DNA from: Peribacillus asahii
Lineage (GTDB): Bacteria > Bacillota > Bacilli > Bacillales > DSM-1321
Length of the DNA: 64,000 bases
Reading direction: 5' to 3'
NCBI RefSeq assembly: GCF_004006295.1
Contig: NZ_CP026095.1
Coordinates: 2,218,001-2,282,000 of the forward strand
How positions within the stretch are numbered: position 1 is the stretch's first letter; each line of letters starts with the position of its first letter. The position numbers and the translations under genes are program-made. The notes beneath the pieces are model-generated. The model ran no database searches. It saw only the letters and a program-made list of their open reading frames with translations, and had not been told where the DNA came from. Below, in pieces: positions 4,841 through 42,479 of this stretch.

Positions 4841-5677
4841 TTATTTAAAGTATGGTGGTTGCCAGAAGCCTTCAAACTGTGGGTCTGTTTCAATCAGTTG
4901 CTGGAAATCCTCTGTTTGGTATGCGTCTGTTAAGTCTTTAACAAATGTTTTATCTTTGTCTTCTGTACGAACAGCGATTAAGTTTTGGTACTCAAATGGT
5001 GGGTTTTCAAGCAGTAAGCTGTCAGAAAGCTTACGGTCTGATGCTAAAACATAGTTACCGTTTACGACAGCATAATCAACGTCGCTAATTAGGCGTGCTA
5101 GCTGTGCTTGCTCTACTTCTACAAACTCAATTTCTACCTTGTATGACTCAATGTCATGTAAGCTCACTGTTAGCGGATCATAGTCAGATTTTAATGTTAA
5201 AAATCCACCTTCCTCTAAAATGCGTAGTGCACGAGCAATGTTTGGTGGGTCATTTGGAATTAACACTTTGTATTTTGTACTAGTATCTAGCTTAATTTCT
5301 GTAAGTTTATCAGAATAAATACCCATCGGCGCTGTCGGTACTTTAATTGTTTCGACTAAATCTAATTTATTCTCTTTAATAAAGCTTTCAAAATACGCTG
5401 TATGCTGAAAAATGTTAGCGTCTAGTGAGCCTTCTGCAAGGGCGAAATTGATTTCATTACCGCTCGTAAATTCGACGAACTCAATCGTGTAGCCTTTTTC
5501 TTTTAAGATAGGCTGGATCCCTTTACGTACTTGATCACTGTAAGGACCAGGCGAGAAACCGATTCGAATATGTTTCGTATCATCGGTACTAGCTGATTTA
5601 CTGACATCAGATGATCCGCAAGCTGCTAACAATACGACGGTCAAAATAGATACGACAAATAATGCAAATTTTTTCAT
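4841..5677 (-). CDS. metQ: MetQ/NlpA-family substrate-binding lipoprotein
   Basis: A protein of 278 residues when started at ATG 5677, which has a GAGGAGG site 8 bases upstream. The N-terminus MKKFALFVVSILTVVLLAAC is a lipoprotein signal peptide with lipobox LAAC. The rest is NlpA-like, with IRIGFSPGPYSDQVRKGIQ, NIFQHTAYFESF, and VLIPNDPPNIARALRILEE. Family members bind methionine or other small sulfur compounds outside the membrane and deliver them to a MetN/MetI importer. Here those two partners are encoded in the divergent oxygenase operon at 11103-12552. The ligand is therefore more likely an organosulfur compound such as a sulfonate or sulfone than methionine, which is inference. The gene has its own terminator-containing leader upstream. 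Confidence 0.88.
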   Translation of the reverse strand: MKKFALFVVSILTVVLLAACGSSDVSKSASTDDTKHIRIGFSPGPYSDQVRKGIQPILKEKGYTIEFVEFTSGNEINFALAEGSLDANIFQHTAYFESFIKENKLDLVETIKVPTAPMGIYSDKLTEIKLDTSTKYKVLIPNDPPNIARALRILEEGGFLTLKSDYDPLTVSLHDIESYKVEIEFVEVEQAQLARLISDVDYAVVNGNYVLASDRKLSDSLLLENPPFEYQNLIAVRTEDKDKTFVKDLTDAYQTEDFQQLIETDPQFEGFWQPPYFK

Positions 5678-5710
5678 ACAAAATTCCTCCTCAAATATGT
5701 TGTTGGACAT

Positions 5711-5850
5711 AAGTCGACCCCATGTTCATCCATTACGTCTGCGTGTAGTCTCTCATTTTGCTAGAAACAAAAAAAAGAGACACATATATTTGTTGAACAA
5801 ATATATACGCCTCCGGTGATCCGGTCGGAAAAGTCTAGTAGACTAATTGG
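5711..5850 (-). promoter_or_regulatory. Attenuator-like leader of metQ with CCGG-AUCA-CCGG hairpin and terminator
   Basis: Read on the minus strand, a perfect palindrome AGTCTACTAGACT (5844-5832) is followed by CCGGATCACCGGAG (5824-5811). A long hairpin comes next (arms 5813-5796 and 5794-5777) and then a run of eight T. Since this terminator lies about 100 bases before the metQ ribosome binding site, transcripts must read through it for expression. The 14-nt box recurs with paired base changes in the divergent operon leader at 6048. No known riboswitch class (SAM-I, T-box) fits what I see. The trigger is unknown; sulfur limitation is the obvious guess. Confidence 0.6.
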
Positions 5851-5994
5851 AATTAAGGATGATTTTACCAAGCAGTTTTTCATTTGGCAATACTATTTTT
5901 GAAATAAATAATAACAAAAATCGTAGAGAGATAGTTTTTTCATCTAATGGAGCACAGTAAAATTATTTTTGTTCAAAAAACATATAAAACTCAC

Positions 5995-6023
5995 TTGACT
6001 AATCTGAATTATTTGTTTATTGT
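5995..6023 (+). promoter_or_regulatory. Sigma-A promoter of the organosulfur oxygenase operon
   Basis: TTGACT (5995-6000), a 17-base spacer and TATTGT (6018-6023) fit a sigma-A promoter. Transcription would start near 6030, leaving a leader of about 90 bases that contains the hairpin box and terminator described next. Confidence 0.6.
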
Positions 6024-6029
6024 GTTTAC

Positions 6030-6108
6030 ATAACTTAACAAAAGCCACTGGACCACCAGAGCTCCTTTCATATCACATCGATATGCTTGGAGCTTTTTTT
6101 GTTTAAAA
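6030..6108 (+). promoter_or_regulatory. Attenuator-like leader of the oxygenase operon with CUGG-ACCA-CCAG hairpin and terminator
   Basis: CTGGACCACCAGAG (6048-6061) forms a 4-bp hairpin with loop ACCA and runs directly into an intrinsic terminator: AGCTCC (6060-6065) pairs with GGAGCT (6089-6094), CATATC pairs with GATATG inside it, and seven T follow. The ribosome binding site AAAGGAGG comes immediately after. The box is the same as in the metQ leader apart from a T-A to C-G pair swap and one loop pyrimidine change. This argues for a conserved RNA structure controlling both divergent transcripts. Confidence 0.6.
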
Positions 6109-6120
6109 GGAGGATGTCGC

Positions 6121-7551
6121 ATGGTGCAAATTAAAGGAGCTAGAAATATTTGGCTCGATGGAAATAAAGTAGAAAAGCCAGCAGAGCACGCTGCGTTTCG
6201 CGGGACGTTTGAAACAATCAAGCAGCTCATCAAGCTAATTGATGATGGGAAGGTTGGCTTTTATGATGAATCAGTACAACAAAATGTGCATAAAGCATTT
6301 TTAATTCCACAAACGTATGAGCAACTATTAGAAAAGAGAGAGGCGTATGAGACATGGGCCAGCAAGTCCTACGGAATGATGAGTCGCTTATCGGATTATG
6401 CGTATACGCTTATTACCGGCTACTACATCGACCGCGAGCAGCTAAGTGTATATGATGCAACATTCGTTGAAAAAATAACGAATTATTTTGAGTTAGTAAA
6501 GCGTGAACGTCGTTTAGTGACAACAGCGATTGCCGATCCGCAAATGGACCGTTCGAAGCCGATTACAGAGCGTGCAGATCATGCGTTACTTCGAGTTGTA
6601 GAACAGAGAGAGGACGGGGTTGTTGTTAGTGGAGCGAAAATGATTGCAACCGGTGCACCGTACGTCGACGACATTATTATTAATACGCCGTATAGCAAAG
6701 AAGACGGTCAGGAGCAATATGCGAATTTATTTATCGTCGCAACGGATTCGCCAGCGCTTGAAATTATTTGTCGTAAGAGCCATGCGGAGACGGATCGTGA
6801 ACTATATCCGCTGGCGAGCCAGTTTGATGAGATGGATGCGGTTATCATTTTTGATAACGTCTTTATTCCAAATGAACGTATTTTTATTCGTGGTCATGCA
6901 CAAGGGGCAACAGCAGCGCATCGTCATCAGCAGTTAAATACGTTAGCGCATTACCAAACGGTTGTGCGCCTGGCGACAAAGCTGAAGTTTGTTGCTGGAC
7001 TTGCGACGGCCATTGCGAAAAGTATTGCGGTGGATACGTTTTTACATGTGCAGCAAAAGCTTGGTGAGCTGTATATGCAGGTCGATACAATTAACGGTTT
7101 GCTACAGGCGGCGGAAACGGAAGGGAGTGTAGAAGGTAGTGCGTATAAGCCGAGTGCGGTGCCGTTACAAGTAGCACGTCACTTAGGGACGCAGTATTAT
7201 GCTCGGGCGATGAGCATTTTAAAGGAAATCGGCGCGGGTGGTTATACGCAGCTGCCATCAACAGTCATTCATCGTTTTGAGGATGAGCGAATAGAGGCGT
7301 TGTTGCATCGTTATTACGAGGGCGCGGCGACTTCTGCTCAGGATAAGACTGCACTATTTAGGGTTGGCTGGGAGCTAGTCGGCAGTGAAATCGGCAGCAG
7401 GCATGATTTATATGAGCGTTTTTATACAGGAGACCCGTTGCGCATCCAAGCTTTATTTTTTGAAAATTATGATAAAGGGTGGCTGGATGAACGGTTGGAT
7501 ACGTTTTTAAATAGCTTGACGACGACAGTAAGACAGGATGTGTTTGTATGA
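6121..7551 (+). CDS. HpaB-like flavin-dependent monooxygenase, copy 1
   Basis: A 476-residue protein of the 4-hydroxyphenylacetate 3-hydroxylase (HpaB) family, whose members use FADH2 from a separate reductase to hydroxylate aromatic rings. The usual N-terminal (WLDGNKVEKPAEHAAFRGT), middle (GVVVSGAKMIATGAPYVDD, FDEMDAVIIFDNVFIPNERI) and C-terminal helical (HLGTQYYARAMSILKEIGAGG, WELVGSEIGSRHDLYERFY) regions are present. Length is normal. It is the first gene of a tight operon, and its stop overlaps the start of a paralogue (ATGA at 7548-7551). With SsuD, SfnG and SfnB downstream, a role in attacking aromatic organosulfur compounds is plausible. A flavin reductase partner is not encoded nearby. 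Substrate not predictable from sequence. Confidence 0.85.
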   Translation: MVQIKGARNIWLDGNKVEKPAEHAAFRGTFETIKQLIKLIDDGKVGFYDESVQQNVHKAFLIPQTYEQLLEKREAYETWASKSYGMMSRLSDYAYTLITGYYIDREQLSVYDATFVEKITNYFELVKRERRLVTTAIADPQMDRSKPITERADHALLRVVEQREDGVVVSGAKMIATGAPYVDDIIINTPYSKEDGQEQYANLFIVATDSPALEIICRKSHAETDRELYPLASQFDEMDAVIIFDNVFIPNERIFIRGHAQGATAAHRHQQLNTLAHYQTVVRLATKLKFVAGLATAIAKSIAVDTFLHVQQKLGELYMQVDTINGLLQAAETEGSVEGSAYKPSAVPLQVARHLGTQYYARAMSILKEIGAGGYTQLPSTVIHRFEDERIEALLHRYYEGAATSAQDKTALFRVGWELVGSEIGSRHDLYERFYTGDPLRIQALFFENYDKGWLDERLDTFLNSLTTTVRQDVFV

Positions 7552-8933
7552 CGAATTTGAAGGAACGAATGCAGGATGGACGTAGTGTTTGGTACGGTGG
7601 CAAGCTCGTGACAAATATTGCGGAGCATCATGCGTTTCGCGGGACAGTGCAGACAATTGAGCAGCTATTAGGGTTGCAGGCAGGTGCGTTGGAGCAGGAG
7701 CTAACATGCGAGGGTGCGCATCTTTCGTTTTTAGTGCCTACAGCGCGTGAGGATTTACAGCGTAAGGAGAAGGCGTACAAAATTTGGGCGGATGCGACTT
7801 TTGGGATTATGAGTCGCTTGTCGGAGTATTCGCGTGAAATCGAGACGGGCTGGTATGCAAATCGTAAGCATTTAGCAACGATTATTCCACATTTTGATAC
7901 GAAGATTGAGCGTATTTATCAAAATTCACGTAATCGCGATTTGCTATCGACCGCAGCGGCGCAAGATTTACAGCGTAATCGTAGTCGCGCAACGGTCGAG
8001 GCGGACAATGGTCAGCTACGCGTTGTCAAAAAGACGGAAGAAGGGGTTATTGTACGCGGAGCTAAAACCATTGCGACGGCTGCTCCTTATGTAGATGAAT
8101 ATATTATTTCGTCGTTCCATAAGCGGAGCGATACACAGCGTGCGTTAGCGAATACGTTTATTATTCCGGCTAATTTACAGGGCTTGCAAATTGTTTGTCG
8201 TGAATCGTTTGCGAGTAGTGATGCGGTTAATGCACCACTGAGTGCACGTTATGATGAAATGGACGCGGTGCTAATTTTTGAGGATGTACTCATTCCTTGG
8301 GAGTATGTGCTTGTGCTAGAGGATCCGGATGCAGCGTGGAAGTTGCAGGTAGACCCAGTGGCAGCTGCACTAAGCCAGCATCAAACGGTAGTCCGTTTAA
8401 AAAGTAAGCTGCAAAGCGTGGCGGGGATTGCGTACGGGCTTGCGAAAAGTGCAGATGTAACAGGCTTTTTAAACGTTCAAAATGATTTAGCAAATTTAAT
8501 CATGCAGGTGGAGACGATTGAGGCGTTGCTGCGTACGGCACAGCATACAGGAGAGTTGCATAACGGGATTTTTATTCCGAATCGTCAATATTTAGACACG
8601 GCGCGTAATTTAGGGACGCGTTATTATGCAACAGGTGTAGAGGCGATTCAGCAAATCGGGGCGTCGGGGCTGCTACAGACACCAGCGACGACAGAGGAGC
8701 TTGCGAGTCATCCAGAATGGCGCGAATATTTTTCCGCATCTGATGAGTTCGATAGTACGAAGCGTACGATGCTTAGCAAGCTGGCGTGGGATTTTATCGG
8801 TAGTCCGCTTGGTTCGCGTCATGCGTTGTATGAGCGCTTTTATTCAGGAGATCCGGTTCGCACGTATGCGAATTATTATAATAATCATCCACAGCAGCAG
8901 GCATTCACACAGTTTGCGACATCGATTTTATAG
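7548..8933 (+). CDS. HpaB-like flavin-dependent monooxygenase, copy 2
   Basis: A 461-residue paralogue of the preceding gene. It shares WYGGKLVTNIAEHHAFRGT with copy 1's WLDGNKVEKPAEHAAFRGT, GVIVRGAKTIATAAPYVDEY, YDEMDAVLIFEDVLIPWEYV and DFIGSPLGSRHALYERFYSG. The copies are clearly diverged, roughly 40% alike by eye, so the duplication is old and they may form a hetero-oligomer or act on different substrates. Translation is probably coupled through the ATGA overlap. The stop is followed after 12 bases by the SsuD-like gene with its own AGGAGG site. Like copy 1 it would need reduced FAD from elsewhere in the genome. Confidence 0.85.
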   Translation: MTNLKERMQDGRSVWYGGKLVTNIAEHHAFRGTVQTIEQLLGLQAGALEQELTCEGAHLSFLVPTAREDLQRKEKAYKIWADATFGIMSRLSEYSREIETGWYANRKHLATIIPHFDTKIERIYQNSRNRDLLSTAAAQDLQRNRSRATVEADNGQLRVVKKTEEGVIVRGAKTIATAAPYVDEYIISSFHKRSDTQRALANTFIIPANLQGLQIVCRESFASSDAVNAPLSARYDEMDAVLIFEDVLIPWEYVLVLEDPDAAWKLQVDPVAAALSQHQTVVRLKSKLQSVAGIAYGLAKSADVTGFLNVQNDLANLIMQVETIEALLRTAQHTGELHNGIFIPNRQYLDTARNLGTRYYATGVEAIQQIGASGLLQTPATTEELASHPEWREYFSASDEFDSTKRTMLSKLAWDFIGSPLGSRHALYERFYSGDPVRTYANYYNNHPQQQAFTQFATSIL

Positions 8934-8945
8934 GAGGAAAACAAT

Positions 8946-10004
8946 ATGACAAAAGCACATTTTTATTGGTTTGTGCCGACAAATGGTGATGGCGAATTTT
9001 TAGGGCTGGCGAAGCCTCAGCGTGAGCCTTCGTTAGATTATTTAATTGAGGTGGCACAAGCAACAGAAGAAGCAGGCTTTGAAGGGATTTTAGTACCGAC
9101 GGGCATTCCGTATTTAGATTCATGGATTGTCGGATCTGCTATCGTGCAAAATACGAAGCGGATTAAACCGCTAGTAGCGTTCCGTCCGGGCTTTATCGCA
9201 CCGACTGTGGCGGCAAAGCTTTCTGCGACGCTCGATCAGTTTGCGAAAGGCCGCTTGCTTGTAAACGTTGTGACAGGTGGCTCGCAAAAGGAGCTTGGTC
9301 AGGACGGTGATTTTACGGGGCACGAGGAGCGTTATGAGCGTACAGGCGAGTTTTTAGATGTTATTACGAAGTCTTGGACGGGCGAGACGTTTAGTCATAA
9401 AGGTCAGTTTTTCGAAACGAAGGATGCGCAGTTAGTGCCTGGGCTGTATCAACAAGGACGTATTCCGGTATATTTCGGTGGCTCATCGGATAGCGCAAAG
9501 GAAATTGCGGCGCAGTATGCGGATGTGTTCTTGCAGTGGGGTGAGCCGGTTGCTCAGGTGAAGGAGCAGCTAGAGGACGTGAAGGCGCGTGCTGCAAAAT
9601 ACAAGCGCACGTTAGAGTTTGGAGTTCGTTTACACGTTGTTGTACGTGATACGGAGCAGGAAGCTTGGAAGGCAGCGTACCATATTATTAGTCAAATTGA
9701 TGAGGACGTTCGAGAGAAGATGAACAATGTATTTGAAGAGACGGATTCAGTGGCGCAAAAACGTATGACGGAAATTGCGCAGCAAGGCGAGCGTTTTGAT
9801 AAATATAGCTGGACGGGTATCGGGAAAATTCGTAAAGGTGCAGGCACAGCGCTTGTCGGCACACCGGAGCAAATTGAAGAGGCGTTGCAGGAATATATCG
9901 ATGCGGGTGTGACGCATTTTGTGCTATCGGGCTTCCCGCATGTAGAGGAAGCGTTACGTTTCGGAAAAGACGTGCTTCCAAGATTTGAAAAAATAACTGT
10001 ATAA
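8946..10004 (+). CDS. ssuD: SsuD-like alkanesulfonate monooxygenase (LLM family)
   Basis: A 352-residue luciferase-like flavin monooxygenase, close to SsuD in length and pattern. It has KAHFYWFVPTNGDGEFLG at the start, then FRPGFIAPTVAAKLSATLDQ, GRLLVNVVTGGSQKELGQDG and YFGGSSDSAKEIAAQYADVF. SsuD uses FMNH2 and O2 to cleave the C-S bond of alkanesulfonates, giving an aldehyde and sulfite. It acts in the cytoplasm and depends on an NADPH:FMN reductase (SsuE), which is not in this cluster. Ribosome binding site AGGAGG precedes ATG 8946. Position between the HpaB pair and SfnG fits a sulfur-starvation operon. The exact sulfonate is unknown. Confidence 0.88.
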   Translation: MTKAHFYWFVPTNGDGEFLGLAKPQREPSLDYLIEVAQATEEAGFEGILVPTGIPYLDSWIVGSAIVQNTKRIKPLVAFRPGFIAPTVAAKLSATLDQFAKGRLLVNVVTGGSQKELGQDGDFTGHEERYERTGEFLDVITKSWTGETFSHKGQFFETKDAQLVPGLYQQGRIPVYFGGSSDSAKEIAAQYADVFLQWGEPVAQVKEQLEDVKARAAKYKRTLEFGVRLHVVVRDTEQEAWKAAYHIISQIDEDVREKMNNVFEETDSVAQKRMTEIAQQGERFDKYSWTGIGKIRKGAGTALVGTPEQIEEALQEYIDAGVTHFVLSGFPHVEEALRFGKDVLPRFEKITV

Positions 10005-10015
10005 GTGGTGAGACG

Positions 10016-11068
10016 ATGAAATTTTTAACATGGGGTGCCAATATCGGCGGCGGCTTTTTACGCGCCAACATTGAACAAGAATTGCGCGGTGATATTGCGT
10101 ATAACATAGAGCTGGCACAGCTGGCAGATAAAATAGGCGTGCACGGTATCCTATTTCCGATTCGTTACGTAGGGCGTATCGGTGGCAATAATGGGACGGA
10201 TGGGCAGCTGGATCCGTTAACAGTTGTCAGTGCAGTAGCAACGCAAACGTCACGTGTGAGTTTATTGGCGGCGGTATTGCCAAGCTTTATTCATCCGGTA
10301 ACGTTAGCGAAAATTGGCTCGACGTTAGATGTCATTTCGGGCGGTCGCTTCCATATTAATTTAGTGAGTGGCTGGTTCAAGGCGGAGCAGGAGAAGTTTG
10401 GTATTGATTGGATTGATCACCGTGATCGTTATCGTCGTTCGGATGAATATTTACAAGTTGTGAAAGGCTTGTGGACGCAGGATGATTTCACATTTAACGG
10501 CGATTTTTACAACATTCAAGGCGGGACGTTAAATCCAAAGCCTGTGCAAAAGCCGTATCCAGCCATTTATCAAGGCGGAAACTCTGCACAGTCACAGCAA
10601 GTCGCAGCAAAAAATTCAGATGTGTATTTCATGAATGGTGCGCCAATAGAAGAGCTTCAGCCACAAATTGAGGCGGTGAAGACTTTAGCACAGCAGGAAA
10701 ATCGCACGCTGCAATACGCGGTCGCAGCATACGTTATTGCACGTGAAACAGAAGAGGAAGCATTGGCTGAATATGAGGCAATTTTAGCAAGAGCAGATGA
10801 GGAAGCAATCGCACAATTTAAGGCGAGCAAAGAAACGAAAGGGATGTGGAAAAACGCTAAAACAGTGAGTGACTTTGTCGCAAACAATGAAGGCTTCCGT
10901 ACAGGATTAGTCGGCAGCTATGAGCAAGTAGCGAGCAAGCTGCGCGAACTGGAGGCAATCGGCATTGATCAGGTGTTACTAGCATTCCGCAATCCATTAA
11001 CAGAACTACCGTTATTTTTCGAGCACGTAGAGTCGAAAGTGAATCCTTTCACACTAAATACCAAGTAA
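10016..11068 (+). CDS. sfnG: SfnG-like dimethylsulfone monooxygenase (LLM family)
   Basis: A 350-residue luciferase-like monooxygenase of the SfnG branch. It has TWGANIGGGFLRANIEQELR and YNIELAQLADKIGVHGILFP at the N-terminus, FIHPVTLAKIGSTLDVISGG, then INLVSGWFKAEQEKFG and YPAIYQGGNSAQSQQVAAKN. SfnG converts dimethylsulfone to methanesulfinate with FMNH2 and O2, an upper step of dimethylsulfide use as sulfur source; SsuD/MsuD-type enzymes finish the release of sulfite. The neighbouring SsuD-like and SfnB-like genes make this reading coherent. Start ATG 10016 follows GTGGTGAG by a few bases. The family call is strong, the substrate is inferred. Confidence 0.87.
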   Translation: MKFLTWGANIGGGFLRANIEQELRGDIAYNIELAQLADKIGVHGILFPIRYVGRIGGNNGTDGQLDPLTVVSAVATQTSRVSLLAAVLPSFIHPVTLAKIGSTLDVISGGRFHINLVSGWFKAEQEKFGIDWIDHRDRYRRSDEYLQVVKGLWTQDDFTFNGDFYNIQGGTLNPKPVQKPYPAIYQGGNSAQSQQVAAKNSDVYFMNGAPIEELQPQIEAVKTLAQQENRTLQYAVAAYVIARETEEEALAEYEAILARADEEAIAQFKASKETKGMWKNAKTVSDFVANNEGFRTGLVGSYEQVASKLRELEAIGIDQVLLAFRNPLTELPLFFEHVESKVNPFTLNTK

Positions 11069-11102
11069 ACAACTTTATTAAATCAGGAAAGGGTGAATCT
11101 AG

Positions 11103-11891
11103 ATGATTACGTTAAAAAATATTAGTAAGGTTTACAAAACGAAGTCTACGCAGTTTGAGGCGGTGCAGCCGACATCGATTACGATTCAGCAAGGTGAAAT
11201 TTTTGGCATTATCGGCTTTAGTGGTGCAGGGAAATCGACATTGCTGCGCATGATTAACTTAATCGAGCCGCCAACATCAGGTGAGGTATGGTTTGACGGA
11301 GTCGAGCTGACAGACCTAAAGCTGAAGCAATTACAGCAGAAGCGCCATGAGATTGGGATGATTTTTCAGCATTTTAACTTGCTATTAAATAAAACCGTAT
11401 ATGGCAATATCGAATTTGCGTTGAAGGCTGCGGGTGTGCCAAAGTCTGAGCGGGCAGAGCGCATTCATCATATTTTAAAGGTAGTAGAGCTGAGTGATAA
11501 GGTGCATCATTATCCGGCGCAGCTAAGTGGTGGGCAAAAGCAGCGTGTGGCGATTGCACGTGCGCTCGTGTTAAACCCGAAAGTGCTGTTATGTGATGAG
11601 CCAACGTCAGCACTTGATCCGCAAACGACGGAAAATATTTTGGAGTTTTTAAAATCGATTAATGAAAAGCTTGGTGTAACGCTTGTTATCGTGACGCATG
11701 AGATGGAGGTTGTCAACACGTTGTGCCACCGTGTTGCTGTCATGGAAAAAGGTGCGATTCAAGAAGAGCTGACGCTGGCACAATCACCGACAGCGACGAC
11801 GAGCATAGGCAAATTACTCATTGAGCATCGTGAGAAGGAAAACAGGCATAAGCAGTATGATATTCGCTTAGGAGGCGTTATCCATGTTTGA
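11103..11891 (+). CDS. metN: MetN-type ABC transporter ATPase lacking the C-terminal regulatory domain
   Basis: A 262-residue ABC ATPase with Walker A GFSGAGKS, Q-loop MIFQHFNLL, signature LSGGQKQR, Walker B VLLCDEPTSALDP and H-loop VTHEME. Sequence style matches MetN (methionine/NlpA importer), but typical MetN is ~340 residues with a C-terminal NIL/ACT-like domain that senses substrate. That domain is absent here, so trans-inhibition by methionine is not expected. It pairs with the MetI-type permease that overlaps its 3' end by 8 bases and with the MetQ-type lipoprotein encoded divergently. The energy-coupling subunit acts at the inner face of the membrane. Confidence 0.88.
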   Translation: MITLKNISKVYKTKSTQFEAVQPTSITIQQGEIFGIIGFSGAGKSTLLRMINLIEPPTSGEVWFDGVELTDLKLKQLQQKRHEIGMIFQHFNLLLNKTVYGNIEFALKAAGVPKSERAERIHHILKVVELSDKVHHYPAQLSGGQKQRVAIARALVLNPKVLLCDEPTSALDPQTTENILEFLKSINEKLGVTLVIVTHEMEVVNTLCHRVAVMEKGAIQEELTLAQSPTATTSIGKLLIEHREKENRHKQYDIRLGGVIHV

Positions 11892-12552
11892 TAATATTAT
11901 TATGCTTTTACCGGAAATTAAAGAAAGTATCGCTCAAACGTTTATGATGGTTGCGATTTCGCTATCGGCAGCTGTACTGTTTGGGACGTCACTAGGCGTG
12001 TACGTGTTCTTAACGGAAAAGGGCTCTATTCGGCCGAATGCGGTTGTCAATCGCTTCTTAAATTATACGATCAACTTAGTTCGTTCGTTTCCATTTATTA
12101 TTTTACTCGTTGTGTTAATTCCGTTTACGCGTTTAGTTGCTGGAACAACGGTTGGACCACTAGCAGCATCGGTACCGCTATCTATCGCAGCGATTCCGTA
12201 TTTTGCGCGTTTAGTAGAGCAGGCGTTAAAGGAAGTGCCACATGGAACAATCGAGGCAGCAATTGCACTTGGTACGCCGAAGCGTTACATCATTAAAGAG
12301 GTACTATTAAATGAAGCACGTTCAGGTATTATTTTAGCTTTAACCGTGACGACAATTAGCTTTATTTCATATTCAGCGATGGCTGGAATGGTTGGTGGTG
12401 GCGGTATTGGCGATTTAGCGATTCGCTACGGCTACTACCGTTTCCAAACAGATGTCATGATTTTCATGGTGCTGTTGTTAGTTATCATCGTACAAGTTGT
12501 GCAGTTTATCGGTAATTTATTAGCGAAGAAGCTAGATCGCCGTCATATTTAG
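11884..12552 (+). CDS. metI: MetI-type ABC transporter permease
   Basis: A 222-residue membrane protein with about five membrane segments. The conserved coupling region EVPHGTIEAAIALGTPKRYI (EAA loop) is typical of MetI-family permeases, as are NLVRSFPFIILLVVLIPFTR and SYSAMAGMVGGGGIGDLAIR. Its ATG at 11884 has a TAGGAGG site inside the end of the ATPase gene, so the two are translated together. It is predicted to form a homodimeric channel with MetN and receive substrate from the MetQ-type lipoprotein at 4841-5677. Length is normal for the family. Confidence 0.88.
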   Translation: MFDNIIMLLPEIKESIAQTFMMVAISLSAAVLFGTSLGVYVFLTEKGSIRPNAVVNRFLNYTINLVRSFPFIILLVVLIPFTRLVAGTTVGPLAASVPLSIAAIPYFARLVEQALKEVPHGTIEAAIALGTPKRYIIKEVLLNEARSGIILALTVTTISFISYSAMAGMVGGGGIGDLAIRYGYYRFQTDVMIFMVLLLVIIVQVVQFIGNLLAKKLDRRHI

Positions 12553-12564
12553 GGGGAGATTTGA

Positions 12565-13755
12565 ATGGTAAAAGCAATAAAAGAAACAGCGCCGATTGAT
12601 ATTCATTCGGGCGCTTTTGAAGAGTTAGTAAAAGCAATCGAGGAAGATGCAGAGGCGCGCCGTAGTAAAGATGATCGTCTGCTGCCGTATAAGGCATTTC
12701 AGCTTATTAAAGAGGCAAGGCTTGGAGCCATTCGTTTGCCGAAGAATCTTGGTGGTGCTGGTGTGACGAATGTTGAACTATTTGAGGTTGTAAGAAAATT
12801 AGCGAAGGCCGATCCGGATGTAGCTCATGCATTGCGCGCGCATTTTGTGTTTGTCGAGGATAATTTAGCAGCACCGTCAAGCGCAGAGCGTACGCGTCGT
12901 TTGCAAATTGTAGCCAAGGGCGATTTAGTCGGCAATGCGACGACGGAAATTTCATCTAATCCACAAGGAGCAAAGCAGTATGAAACTGTGCTGAGCAAGG
13001 TGGGAGATGATTATGTGTTAAACGGTACGAAGTTTTTTACAACAGGTACTTTATATGCGGATTGGGTATCGGTCGTATCGGCTGGTGAAGGAGATACGGT
13101 ATTTGTGAGCTTTATCCCGACGAACCGTGAAGGCGTGGCTATTTATGACGACTGGGACGGTTTTGGACAGCAGCTAACAGCGAGTGGCACGACAACGTTT
13201 ACAAATACGCCAGTGAAAAGTTATGAGGCGGTCGAGCTGAAGCGTGAAAAGCAAAGTTATGTGGCGATTCGTCAGTTATTTTTACAGGCGGTCGTAGCAG
13301 GAATTGTCGAGGCGATTGTAGAGGATGGTGTAAAGCTATTAAAGGGGCGTAAGCGAACATTTACGCACGGTTCGTCAGCTACAGCAAATGAAGATCCACT
13401 GCTTTTACTAACAATTGGTGAAATTCAAGCAACGGCGTTTACATTGAAGACGTTAATTCGCGAGGCTGCGCAGGCATTAGATGAGGCGTTGCTACAAAGT
13501 ACGCAGCAGTCTAAGCATGAGGCGGCATTGAAAACAGTGTATGTAAAAGTCATTGGTGAGCAGCTGGCGTTGCAGGTGGCCACGAAGCTATTTGATGTCG
13601 GTGGTGCATCTGCGACGAGACGCGACCAGCATTTAGATCGTCATTGGCGTAACATTCGCACGATCGCCTCGCACAACCCGAGCTCGTATAAGCTGAAGGA
13701 TGTCGGCAATTATGTAGTGAACGGGCATGAATTACCGATTAACGGCTATTATTAA
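12565..13755 (+). CDS. sfnB: SfnB/DszC-like flavin monooxygenase (acyl-CoA dehydrogenase fold)
   Basis: A 396-residue protein of the SfnB 'sulfur acquisition oxidoreductase' group. It has the acyl-CoA dehydrogenase fold, with N-terminal helices (LLPYKAFQLIKEARLGAIRL), a beta domain (DYVLNGTKFFTTGTLYADWV) and C-terminal helices ending VGGASATRRDQHLDRHWRNI and RTIASHNPSSYKLKDVGNY. Relatives include the dibenzothiophene monooxygenase DszC, which oxidises sulfur using FMNH2 and oxygen instead of dehydrogenating thioesters. It lies 12 bases after metI with a GGGGGAG site. In this operon it probably acts on a sulfide or sulfone; the substrate is unproven. Confidence 0.85.
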   Translation: MVKAIKETAPIDIHSGAFEELVKAIEEDAEARRSKDDRLLPYKAFQLIKEARLGAIRLPKNLGGAGVTNVELFEVVRKLAKADPDVAHALRAHFVFVEDNLAAPSSAERTRRLQIVAKGDLVGNATTEISSNPQGAKQYETVLSKVGDDYVLNGTKFFTTGTLYADWVSVVSAGEGDTVFVSFIPTNREGVAIYDDWDGFGQQLTASGTTTFTNTPVKSYEAVELKREKQSYVAIRQLFLQAVVAGIVEAIVEDGVKLLKGRKRTFTHGSSATANEDPLLLLTIGEIQATAFTLKTLIREAAQALDEALLQSTQQSKHEAALKTVYVKVIGEQLALQVATKLFDVGGASATRRDQHLDRHWRNIRTIASHNPSSYKLKDVGNYVVNGHELPINGYY

Positions 13756-13766
13756 AGGAGAATTTT

Positions 13767-14237
13767 ATGTCTGCATTTTTTTATTATCAAACGGTGCCAA
13801 TTGAGTTCGGTGTGAGGAAATTACAAAGCTTGCCGGACATTATTCGGGAGCGCGGCTATCACAAGGGGTTATTAATTACCACGAAGTCTATTGTTGCGAA
13901 CGGCATAGCGGATCGTGTTGTAGCGGAAAGTGGCGGGTTGATTACTGATTTCACATACGGTATTCAGCCAAATCCAACGGTGCAAAATACCGATGATTGT
14001 ATCGAGGTGTTGCGTAGTGGTAAGTATGATTTTGCAGTCGCGTTAGGTGGCGGCAGTGTGCTTGATTGTGCAAAGGTGACGACCGCTTTAGCACCTACTA
14101 CTGCGACGACACAGCGCTTTTTTGATGGGGAGTTTGTGCTAACGGAGCCAGGGCTGCCGCTTATTGCGGTACCGACGACGGCTGGTACGGCGAGTGAAAT
14201 AACACAGGTAGAAAGTGATTGTAATCAACGATTGTAA
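13767..14237 (+). pseudogene. Iron-containing alcohol dehydrogenase, truncated after ~147 residues
   Basis: Starts at ATG 13767 with AAAGGAG just upstream. It reads as the N-terminal NAD-binding half of a group III Fe-type alcohol dehydrogenase: VPIEFGVRKLQSLPDIIRER, the phosphate-binding GGGSVLDCAKV, and PLIAVPTTAGTASEITQ. The normal protein is ~380 residues, and the metal-binding histidine half is missing. After ASEITQ the sequence changes abruptly to VESDCNQRL and a stop, and codon use becomes AT-rich, so the break is at about 14208. This marks the right edge of the sulfur island. The enzyme may originally have handled aldehydes released from sulfonates. Confidence 0.85.
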
Positions 14238-16268: not shown

Positions 16269-16318
16269 TTCTTGTAGTATATGAAAATAATAACAATTAA
16301 ATGTTTAAATTTACAAAG

Positions 16319-16560
16319 CACTGATAAGGACATGAGTTACTTTTACGGTTTCCAGAGAGGGAAGGAAAGCTGAAATCTTCCTAACGCAGGAAAGTATCTT
16401 ACCACCTTTGAGCTGTATTGGGGAATTAAGTATCCAATACCGTCTATGCTACGTTACAGCACCAGAGCTGTAAGTGATTTTTTTGACTTATGGAAAATTG
16501 GGTGGAACCACGGGTATAACGCACTCGTCCCTTGCCAGAGGGATGAGTGCGTTTTTTTAT
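16319..16560 (+). promoter_or_regulatory. T-box leader 1 (threonine specifier)
   Basis: All T-box landmarks are present: the AGAGAG stretch with GGAAGG...CTTCC distal stem, the specifier region CTTACCACCTTTGAGC with ACC (threonine) after the helix AAAGTA, a second stem GTATTGG/CCAATAC with GGAA and AGTA loop sequences, the T-box GGGTGGAACCACG, and a strong terminator GCACTCGTCCC...GGGATGAGTGC followed by T7. Uncharged tRNA-Thr would stabilise the antiterminator and allow read-through. It lies upstream of a second T-box. Confidence 0.9.
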
Positions 16561-16588
16561 TTTACAATCATAAAATATAAAATTATTG

Positions 16589-16830
16589 CGATGAAAAGGA
16601 CATGAATTATTTTTACGGTTTCCAGAGAGGGAAGGAAAGCTGAGAACTTCCTAACTTAGGAAAATAATTTACCACCTTTGAGCTATATCGGTGAACTTAA
16701 GTATCTGATATCGTCTATGCTGCGTTACAGCACCAAAGCCATAAGTGATCTTTTAGCTTATGGGAAATTGGGTGGAACCACGAGTAAAACGCACTCGTCC
16801 CTTGTCATAGGGATGAGTGCGTTTTTTATT
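16589..16830 (+). promoter_or_regulatory. T-box leader 2 (threonine specifier)
   Basis: A near copy of leader 1 with the same order of elements. The specifier context TTTACCACCTTTGAGC again gives ACC. The helix beside it (ATTATTTT/AAAATAAT) and the second stem (ATATCGG/CTGATAT) differ from leader 1 in both strands, so pairing is kept by compensating changes. T-box GGGTGGAACCACG and a GCACTCGTCCC terminator end it 28 bases before the thrS ATG. Two terminators in series make induction steeper than with one. Confidence 0.9.
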
Positions 16831-41520: not shown

Positions 41521-42479
41521 GTGCGGCCGAGCTTAGGTCGTGTCATATAGCGGGTGGGATTCCCGTCGAGTAAGAACTAGCCATTCGCTCGTAGCGTGTC
41601 TTGGAGGGCTAAAGGTAACTTTAGTCTTTAAGCGTAGACAGTTAGGTAGCGGGCCGAAAGCCAAATGGTTGAAGGGATTGAGCTCCATAATGTTAGTAAT
41701 TGGAGAGGGCTGATGCTTTACCTGTAGCAGAAAGCTACATTACATTCTTCGCAAAAGGCAAGAAGAATGACACCTCTCTGGAGTCAGAGACCTTGGCACA
41801 TTATACATTGATATGATACGGCAACTCGGGAGACCCTACCGGTCTTTTCCTTTTTTTAGAAGAGTATGGTGTACAAGCGATAACAAGTAAGGAAACCAAA
41901 TGCCGTGTAGGAAGTCGGATAGCAGCGTAGTACCAATGAAGTTGGGTAATGCCGATGGAGGAAAGGTTAGCTACCAGTTATCACCCTTACTGGGGACACA
42001 TTTACTACACACAGAGGTAGGGATAATAAATGGAAACAAAACTACTAAGGATAGCAGAATTAGCAAAATCTAATCCTAAAATGAAATTTACATCCCTTTT
42101 ACATTTATTAAATGAGCAATCACTAATTCAATGTCATCATGAGTTACCAAATAAAAAGGCAACTGGGGTCAATGGTACAACTAAAGAACAATACAATGAA
42201 AATCTAAAAGAAAACGTAGAGGATTTAGTAAATAGGTTTAAAAGCAAAAGTTATCGTCCTGTTCCAGTAAGGAGAATGTATATTCCAAAGCTAAATTCAG
42301 ATAAGAAAAGACCGTTGGGAATACCAGAATATGAGGATAAAATTGTCCAAAAAGGCATTACAAGGATACTAAATACCATCTATGAGAATGACTTTCTAGA
42401 CTGTTCCTTTGGATTCCGTCCAAACCGTAATTGCCATGATGCTTTGAAAATACTGAACTATTACATTGAAAAGAGGTCA
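41521..42479 (+). ncRNA. Group II intron, 3'-truncated
   Basis: The 5' end GTGCGGCCGAGC is the conserved start of bacterial group II introns. The following ~500 bases are GC-richer and structured, with features such as GCGGGTGGGATTCCCGTC, CGAGTAAGAACTAGCC and GGGAGACCCTACCGG, as in domains I-III. An intron-encoded reverse transcriptase begins at 42030 (domain IV). The intron stops at ~42479, where IS66 sequence takes over, so domains V and VI and self-splicing are lost. The insertion point is in family B repeat sequence (GAAGTAACGGGCAG). Confidence 0.85.

Follow-up and report, generated by a model that had tools for sequence, protein, structure and literature searches.

Two divergent leaders in Peribacillus asahii, one before a metQ-like gene and the other before an hpaB-like gene, raise the question of whether they carry a common RNA element that controls sulfur genes, and what acts on it. 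Both lie in the 64,000-nucleotide stretch of DNA analyzed here (the window). An earlier note on this DNA had described one short box in each leader, CCGGATCACCGGAG on the minus strand (5824-5811) and CTGGACCACCAGAG on the plus strand (6048-6061), and we found both at these places. As that note claimed, the boxes are identical except for a compensatory C-G/T-A pair and a single loop pyrimidine, and intrinsic terminators (minus 5814-5776, 8 T; plus 6060-6094, 7 T) directly continue them. The element is larger than its 4-bp box, which forms just the upper half; a 2x1 internal loop and, outside it, a further stem (minus 5828-5827/5811-5810; plus 6043-6045/6061-6063) complete it. The features of both leaders are collected in Table 1.

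Table 1. Features of the two divergent leaders and the adjoining genes (positions in the window)
Feature	Positions	Strand	Details
MetQ/NlpA-family substrate-binding lipoprotein gene	4841..5710	-	Listed ORF 289 aa; later start gives 278 aa
Intrinsic terminator, metQ leader	5769..5814	-	Stem 5814-5776 plus 8-T run
Antiterminator hairpin, metQ-like leader	5806..5832	-	P1 C5828C5827/G5811G5810, internal loop GA/A, P2 CCGG/CCGG, loop AUCA
Promoter-like site, metQ leader	5862..5890	-	TTGCCA-17-TAAAAT, TG before -10; consensus scan only
Promoter-like site, hpaB leader	5995..6023	+	TTGACT-17-TATTGT; consensus scan only
Antiterminator hairpin, hpaB-like leader	6040..6066	+	P1 AGC 6043-6045/GCU 6061-6063, internal loop CA/A, P2 CUGG/CCAG, loop ACCA
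Intrinsic terminator, hpaB leader	6060..6100	+	7-T run; overlaps 3' arm of P1
Gene run downstream of hpaB leader	6121..13755	+	Pfam and NCBIfam scans; best-fitting NCBIfam models under curated cut-offs

The metQ-like product matches Pfam Lipoprotein_9 (E 4.7e-64), and its top NCBIfam model is MetQ/NlpA, under that model's cut-off. On the other side, the gene run encodes two HpaB-family monooxygenases, two LLM flavin monooxygenases (SsuD-like and SfnG-like), a MetN/MetI-like ABC transporter and an SfnB-like acyl-CoA dehydrogenase; order and spacing suggest that these genes are co-transcribed. At the end of the run stands an iron-type alcohol dehydrogenase ORF (13767-14237, plus strand) of just 156 aa that looks truncated, aligning only to about the first 150 of some 380 NCBIfam model positions.

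The window alone was weak evidence for a shared element, since its two box matches at up to two mismatches were equaled in 7 of 100 shuffles. We found the mismatch-free sequence CYGGAYCACCRGAG at only three places in the 4.89 Mb genome, and all three are terminator-fused leaders. The third copy precedes a flavin monooxygenase gene whose product is 41% identical to the SfnG-like ORF of the window, and copies with an altered loop lie upstream of that gene in two other genomes of the genus.

From 84 aligned sites, the element emerged as a 27-nt hairpin in the order P1, 5' NA (mostly GA), P2, loop, P2', A, P1', so that the 14-nt boxes form its upper part. All 84 sites show one hairpin with a loop of 4-5 nt, usually ending in A, a shape for which they had been selected. 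P2 occurs as CCGG/CCGG, CTGG/CCAG, CTAG/CTAG, TCGG/CCGA, CCAG/CTGG and TTGG/CCAA, with GCAG/CTGC as a further variant downstream of DUF2292, a gene to which we return below, in one genome of the order of Kineothrix. By position, the P2 pairs are CG/UA, CG/UA/UG, GC/AU and an invariant GC; those of P1 include CG/UA and GC/AU/UA among others. P1 is weak at some sites and has 2 bp in the metQ leader.

Covariation was clear over the 84 sites, at 0.408 versus 0.245 after shuffling (none of 500 shuffles reached it) and no more than 0.184 when the pairing was slid, and 82.1% of cells were paired versus 72.7% shuffled. P2 counts for less here because its pairing was a selection criterion. P1 pairing had played no part in the selection of the 67 sites used for a P1-only test, in which only the first 3' G was fixed; covariation there was 0.397 versus 0.274 shuffled (0/500) and at most 0.223 slid. 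P1 reaches at least 3 bp at 48 of 88 distinct sites (shuffled mean 25.1, maximum 34 over 2000) and at 8 of 28 distinct sites that fail the terminator rule (shuffled mean 3.5). C-A in place of U-G in P2 was seen at none of 99 terminator-passing sites, which come mostly from a CCGG-only pattern, versus 5 of 30 failing ones. These data establish the RNA structure. Two other descriptions of the box were discarded, namely a DNA palindrome, as U-G but not C-A substitutes for the Y-R pair at terminator-passing sites and P1 covaries, and a direct repeat ACCGG-N3-ACCGG, as ACTGG pairs with CCAG and does not repeat.

The hairpin and the terminator exclude each other. With a covariance model lacking the terminator (R1), a strong terminator was found at 36 of 39 recovered sites versus 43 of 780 random places, and at all 36 its 5' arm begins inside the hairpin; mutual exclusion is therefore built into the element. 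Seven of the 39 sites repeat a training row exactly and four almost exactly, and 28 lie at least four letters away from every training row, 26 of them with a terminator. In the metQ leader, the 5' arm of the terminator draws in the 3' strand of P1 as well as the two final nucleotides of P2. As long as the 3' arm of the terminator is still unmade, the MFE fold of the hpaB leader is the P1-P2 hairpin (-10.3 kcal/mol). For the full leaders, the terminator is the MFE fold, at -20.0 versus -13.6 kcal/mol with the antiterminator forced for hpaB, and -22.7 versus -18.3 kcal/mol for metQ. A bound factor contributing some 4 to 6 kcal/mol would thus suffice to convert termination to read-through.

R1 recovered the metQ-leader hairpin, which contains box 5824-5811, at 29.2 bits (E 1.1e-6) and the hpaB-leader hairpin at 24.2 bits (E 4.3e-5); both sites belong to its 84 training rows. 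The same search established a regulon in the own genome, giving nine matches at E up to 10, of which eight score below 0.005 and three are training sites. Seven precede sulfur operons, namely the SfnB/SsuD-like operon, sfnG, metQ, the ssu/monooxygenase operon, sbp-cysTWA, the hpaB operon and cysH, the last at E 1.27. The other two (G000:C1:2657763 and 291841 (minus); E 4.8e-4 and 0.0043) have terminators but are not followed by any gene recognisably linked to sulfur; they could be remnants or drive small genes.

Beyond this genome, R1 gave matches in 114 of 299 genomes of the order (E at most 0.003). The earlier note had allowed that the box might lack further copies near sulfur genes elsewhere; many genomes carry such copies. 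The simple pattern ACYGG-N3-ACCRGAG followed by a T-run occurred in 30 of 397 genomes of the order versus 8 of 397 for the reversed pattern, and 17 of the 30 satisfy the terminator rule. A class-level search (20 of 348 genomes) added a cysH gene and, in another family, ssu-like genes. When GTDB species genomes were scanned with the strict CCGG-only pattern, 82 stretches were returned from Bacilli, Lachnospiraceae and other Clostridia, and Geobacter and related groups, along with some that resemble chance matches. Copies lie upstream of organosulfur and nitrogenase-like genes in Paenibacillus, Clostridia and relatives of Geobacter. Gene names outside the window were mostly assigned by eye.

A census of first genes covered 82 distinct rule-passing sites (seven more had no ORF), with 40 proteins scanned and clusters assigned from representatives. 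It comprised 11 NMT1-type (SsuA-like) binding proteins, 9 luciferase-like monooxygenases, 7 ABC ATPases, 7 nitroreductases, 5 FbpA-like small proteins, 4 NifB-like radical SAM proteins, 4 aldo-keto reductases, 3 NifX-like proteins, 2 FMN reductases, and one each of MetQ, HpaB, CysH, cysteine-synthase-type, ThiF and nitrogenase-type proteins. Other first genes, such as those for pyruvate kinase and DUF445, have no clear sulfur link.

Some of these loci deserve mention in their own right. Small FbpA-family proteins (PF13076; two members scanned), often in tandem pairs, lie downstream of the box in Peribacillus-type genomes and one genome of another family (G352); the loci are L073, L080, L083, L091, L093, L095-L097 and L195. 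In B. subtilis, Fbp proteins are iron-sparing RNA chaperones, and those behind the box could possibly be a sulfur-sparing counterpart. In Clostridia (L172, L181, L199, L207), the box stands upstream of NifB-like radical SAM and nitrogenase-component-like genes, which suggests a role in sulfur scavenging rather than nitrogen fixation. At L290, the box is followed by a gene assigned by eye to an Rrf2-type regulator, through which the RNA switch may feed into a cysteine repressor network. L122 carries tandem boxes (1501 and 1628 in minus-strand numbering) upstream of a secreted-protein-like gene, the second of which fails the terminator rule.

We then compared the element with known systems. As the earlier note had supposed, the window leaders have no match to the SAM-I or T-box covariance models, and no Rfam 15 family reaches threshold on them, so the element is not one that Rfam already covers. 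Over the whole window, Rfam 15 found only a group II intron and two T-boxes, all elsewhere than the element: the intron domain match (RF02005, 149 bits) lies at 41557-41793 and the T-box leaders form a tandem pair at 16312-16535 and 16582-16805, all on the plus strand. Between 5700 and 6150, at E up to 10, there were only five chance-level matches (12 to 16.5 bits), all sub-threshold. Among 14 box loci, SAM-I appeared in two, neither on the box, and six own-genome loci gave rRNA only.

A close parallel in design is the RAT antiterminator of BglG/LicT, likewise a small hairpin with an asymmetric internal loop that overlaps the 5' arm of a terminator and excludes it. In the bgl layout, the regulator gene can directly precede its RAT antiterminator. 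The present element differs in having one 2x1 internal loop, a loop of 4-5 nt and, as candidate partner, the roughly 50-aa DUF2292 instead of a CAT/PRD protein, and RF03530 (bglG-cis-reg) scores 14.8 bits at the window element against a cut-off of 80. SAM-I (the S-box, RF00162) also exerts terminator-based control over overlapping sulfur genes, but its aptamer of about 108 nt has an unrelated structure. Elsewhere in the genus, leaders recognised by eye as S-box-like stand upstream of related monooxygenase genes. We also considered and set aside CsrA-, PyrR-, T-box- and ANTAR-like sites, none of which Rfam shows at the window's boxes; ANTAR target RNAs consist of two hairpins with hexaloops.

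The element may have been glimpsed before. In bacilli, Naville and Gautheret (2010) noted an attenuator upstream of an unknown gene and of an operon for sulfonate transport (PMC2965389). It shares with the element the gene class, the premature terminator and the presence at several unlinked genes, and may be an early sighting of it; the two sentences on it in the accessible part of that paper give no structure, partner or wider distribution. In B. methanolicus, leaders upstream of sulfonate and methionine operons are listed as (SAM)-(PyrR) (PMC4342826), and the '(PyrR)' leaders may be the same box under that name. Apart from the papers cited here, we found no description of the element or of DUF2292 function in the openly licensed literature, supplements aside.

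We are highly confident that this cis element exists, is absent from the libraries searched and governs sulfur acquisition through a choice between terminator and antiterminator. As for its partner, our main reading, at a probability of roughly 0.6, is that DUF2292 binds the hairpin and acts positively in a sulfur-starvation antitermination regulon. The 27-nt P1-P2 hairpin would form first in the nascent leader; by default, the terminator would then reclaim the end of P2 together with the P1 3' arm, halting transcription. Under sulfur limitation, a factor would bind the hairpin at the conserved internal loop, P2 and the usual loop-final A and hold it, letting RNA polymerase read through into the sulfur genes. 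This factor would most likely be the roughly 50-aa DUF2292/YezD, acting in trans on all copies. We infer the binding by DUF2292, its direction (binding leads to read-through) and the sulfur signal.

DUF2292 is carried by 190 of 397 genomes of the order, and its co-occurrence with the element is established. It is present in 110 of 114 R1-positive genomes, or 94 of 98 when the 16 training-site genomes are left out; the four R1-positive genomes without it comprise three marginal matches and G325, a good one (E 1.9e-5). All 25 genomes with at least three R1 matches have it. Among the 30 pattern-positive genomes, it occurs in 17 of 17 that pass the terminator rule versus 7 of 13 that fail, the latter being the background rate. 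Of 20 genomes drawn from the GTDB CCGG-only scan, 16 carry it, and in the other four no sulfur gene was seen adjoining the match. In the order of Kineothrix, DUF2292 is rare (3 of 116 genomes); the two best R1 matches fall in two of these genomes and a variant box in the third, and the eight further genomes with weaker matches lack DUF2292, seven of them also a terminator. Conversely, 29 of 139 DUF2292-positive genomes (up to G330) gave no R1 match, some possibly lying outside the 299-genome sample. A naive hypergeometric value of 6e-40 is far too optimistic because of relatedness and linked cysH-type loci, in whose operons DUF2292 and box are physically linked, inflating the co-occurrence. 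Linkage does not account for the multi-copy genomes or for the own genome, where one of two DUF2292 matches was fetched and stands alone with no box adjoining (L239; PF10055, 66.6 bits versus a cut-off of 22).

Gene position points the same way. Clustering of the genes around 99 rule-passing sites placed a DUF2292 gene at 23, upstream on the same strand at 22. Searching from DUF2292 exposed boxes that the first pattern had missed: their stems are CTAG/CTAG and TCGG/CCGA, and they lie between a DUF2292 gene and one that looked by eye like cysH or sbp. A box lies within 130 nt downstream of 23 of 48 parsed DUF2292 genes and upstream (within 330 nt) of one; the 48 come from 55 loci, seven unparsed, and because the descriptor postdates the variants and 24 of the 55 loci were from box-selected genomes, this count is support and not a blind test. 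A model without training sites from the DUF2292-first searches (R2) found four sites in 30 DUF2292 loci (92.6 kb), all directly after DUF2292. What speaks against the reading is that the AlphaFold model of the protein, a helix plus a beta-hairpin (pLDDT 84), gave no clear structural neighbour.

OscA, presumably a DUF2292 protein itself, offers a comparison. This small Pseudomonas corrugata protein, described as having no known function, is encoded within a cluster for a sulfate ABC transporter, in an oscA-sbp unit, and is tied to sulfur starvation (PMC2996968). Aeribacillus resembles this arrangement, with the order DUF2292, box-like hairpin and sbp-like gene (by eye). In B. subtilis, yezD is listed as unknown, and strains deleted for it showed no loss of viability in deep starvation (PMC6385201). 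Two papers were found to name DUF2292, and the accessible part of one (PMC7921472) gives no function for it.

The earlier note had offered two options, one being a new riboswitch of small size and the other a target of an antiterminator or RNA-binding regulator; this framing is supported, neither of its stated objections having been borne out. Between the two, we favour the antiterminator-protein site because the hairpin is very small, its loop is variable, its 3' side overlaps the terminator and DUF2292 accompanies it. That the 27-nt hairpin itself senses a sulfur metabolite, with DUF2292 as a regulon gene or accessory, is unlikely, though it is the strongest competitor. In Bacillales, metabolite-sensing leaders often govern sulfur genes, the element is found in more than one phylum, and at L105 (G337) the leader of an ssuB-like gene holds a SAM-I riboswitch (5452-5560), identified by Rfam, directly upstream of the box (5673), so that two terminator switches of different kinds stand in tandem. 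However, a pocket would find little room in a hairpin that has few conserved nucleotides and a variable loop and in which neither a junction nor a pseudoknot was seen, and the near-restriction to DUF2292-positive genomes, complete in those with at least three matches, is unexpected for a protein-free sensor.

Less probable again is binding of the hairpin by another protein or a small RNA, with DUF2292 co-regulated and traveling with sulfur operons. DUF2292 may itself be only a regulon gene, and at L294, L310 and L260 it does lie downstream of a box, as a regulon member would. Against this, the fetched own-genome gene has no box beside it in a genome with nine R1 matches, and in Bacilli and Clostridia the gene often lies upstream of the box, hence outside that box's control. 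A reversed sign is improbable, whether a bound factor promotes the terminator or, in Clostridia, a ribosome finishing DUF2292 on the box blocks the hairpin. The DUF2292 stop codon TGA does overlap the box (GA of the internal loop) in several Lachnospiraceae loci, but in 23 linked cases the distance from the end of the ORF to the start of P2 ranges from -4 to 38 nt, and many boxes lack a neighbouring DUF2292 gene, which rules out translation coupling as a general mechanism; moreover, the conserved, covarying structure is the terminator-blocking one. The idea that the inverted repeat CYGG-N4-CCRG is a DNA operator bound by a repressor has next to no credit, given that the first P1 pair is U-G at 37 of 84 sites, that P2 accepts U-G and not C-A at terminator-passing sites, and that the terminator is fixed in position relative to the hairpin.

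With the antitermination reading preferred, we give about even odds to a broader view, in which DUF2292/YezD would be among the smallest sequence-specific antiterminators and would serve a sulfur-starvation system with a 27-nt RNA target across Bacilli, Clostridia and Desulfuromonadales, beside or instead of the S-box, jointly controlling sulfate reduction, sulfonate and methionine uptake, flavin monooxygenases and nitrogenase-like clusters. If true, a global sulfur regulon would stand under an RNA element absent from current lists, and the widespread DUF2292 would gain a testable function. Nitrogenase-like and monooxygenase clusters of unclear role would become tied to sulfur acquisition, and it would become testable how organosulfur use is switched on under cysteine and methionine shortage where no S-box is present.
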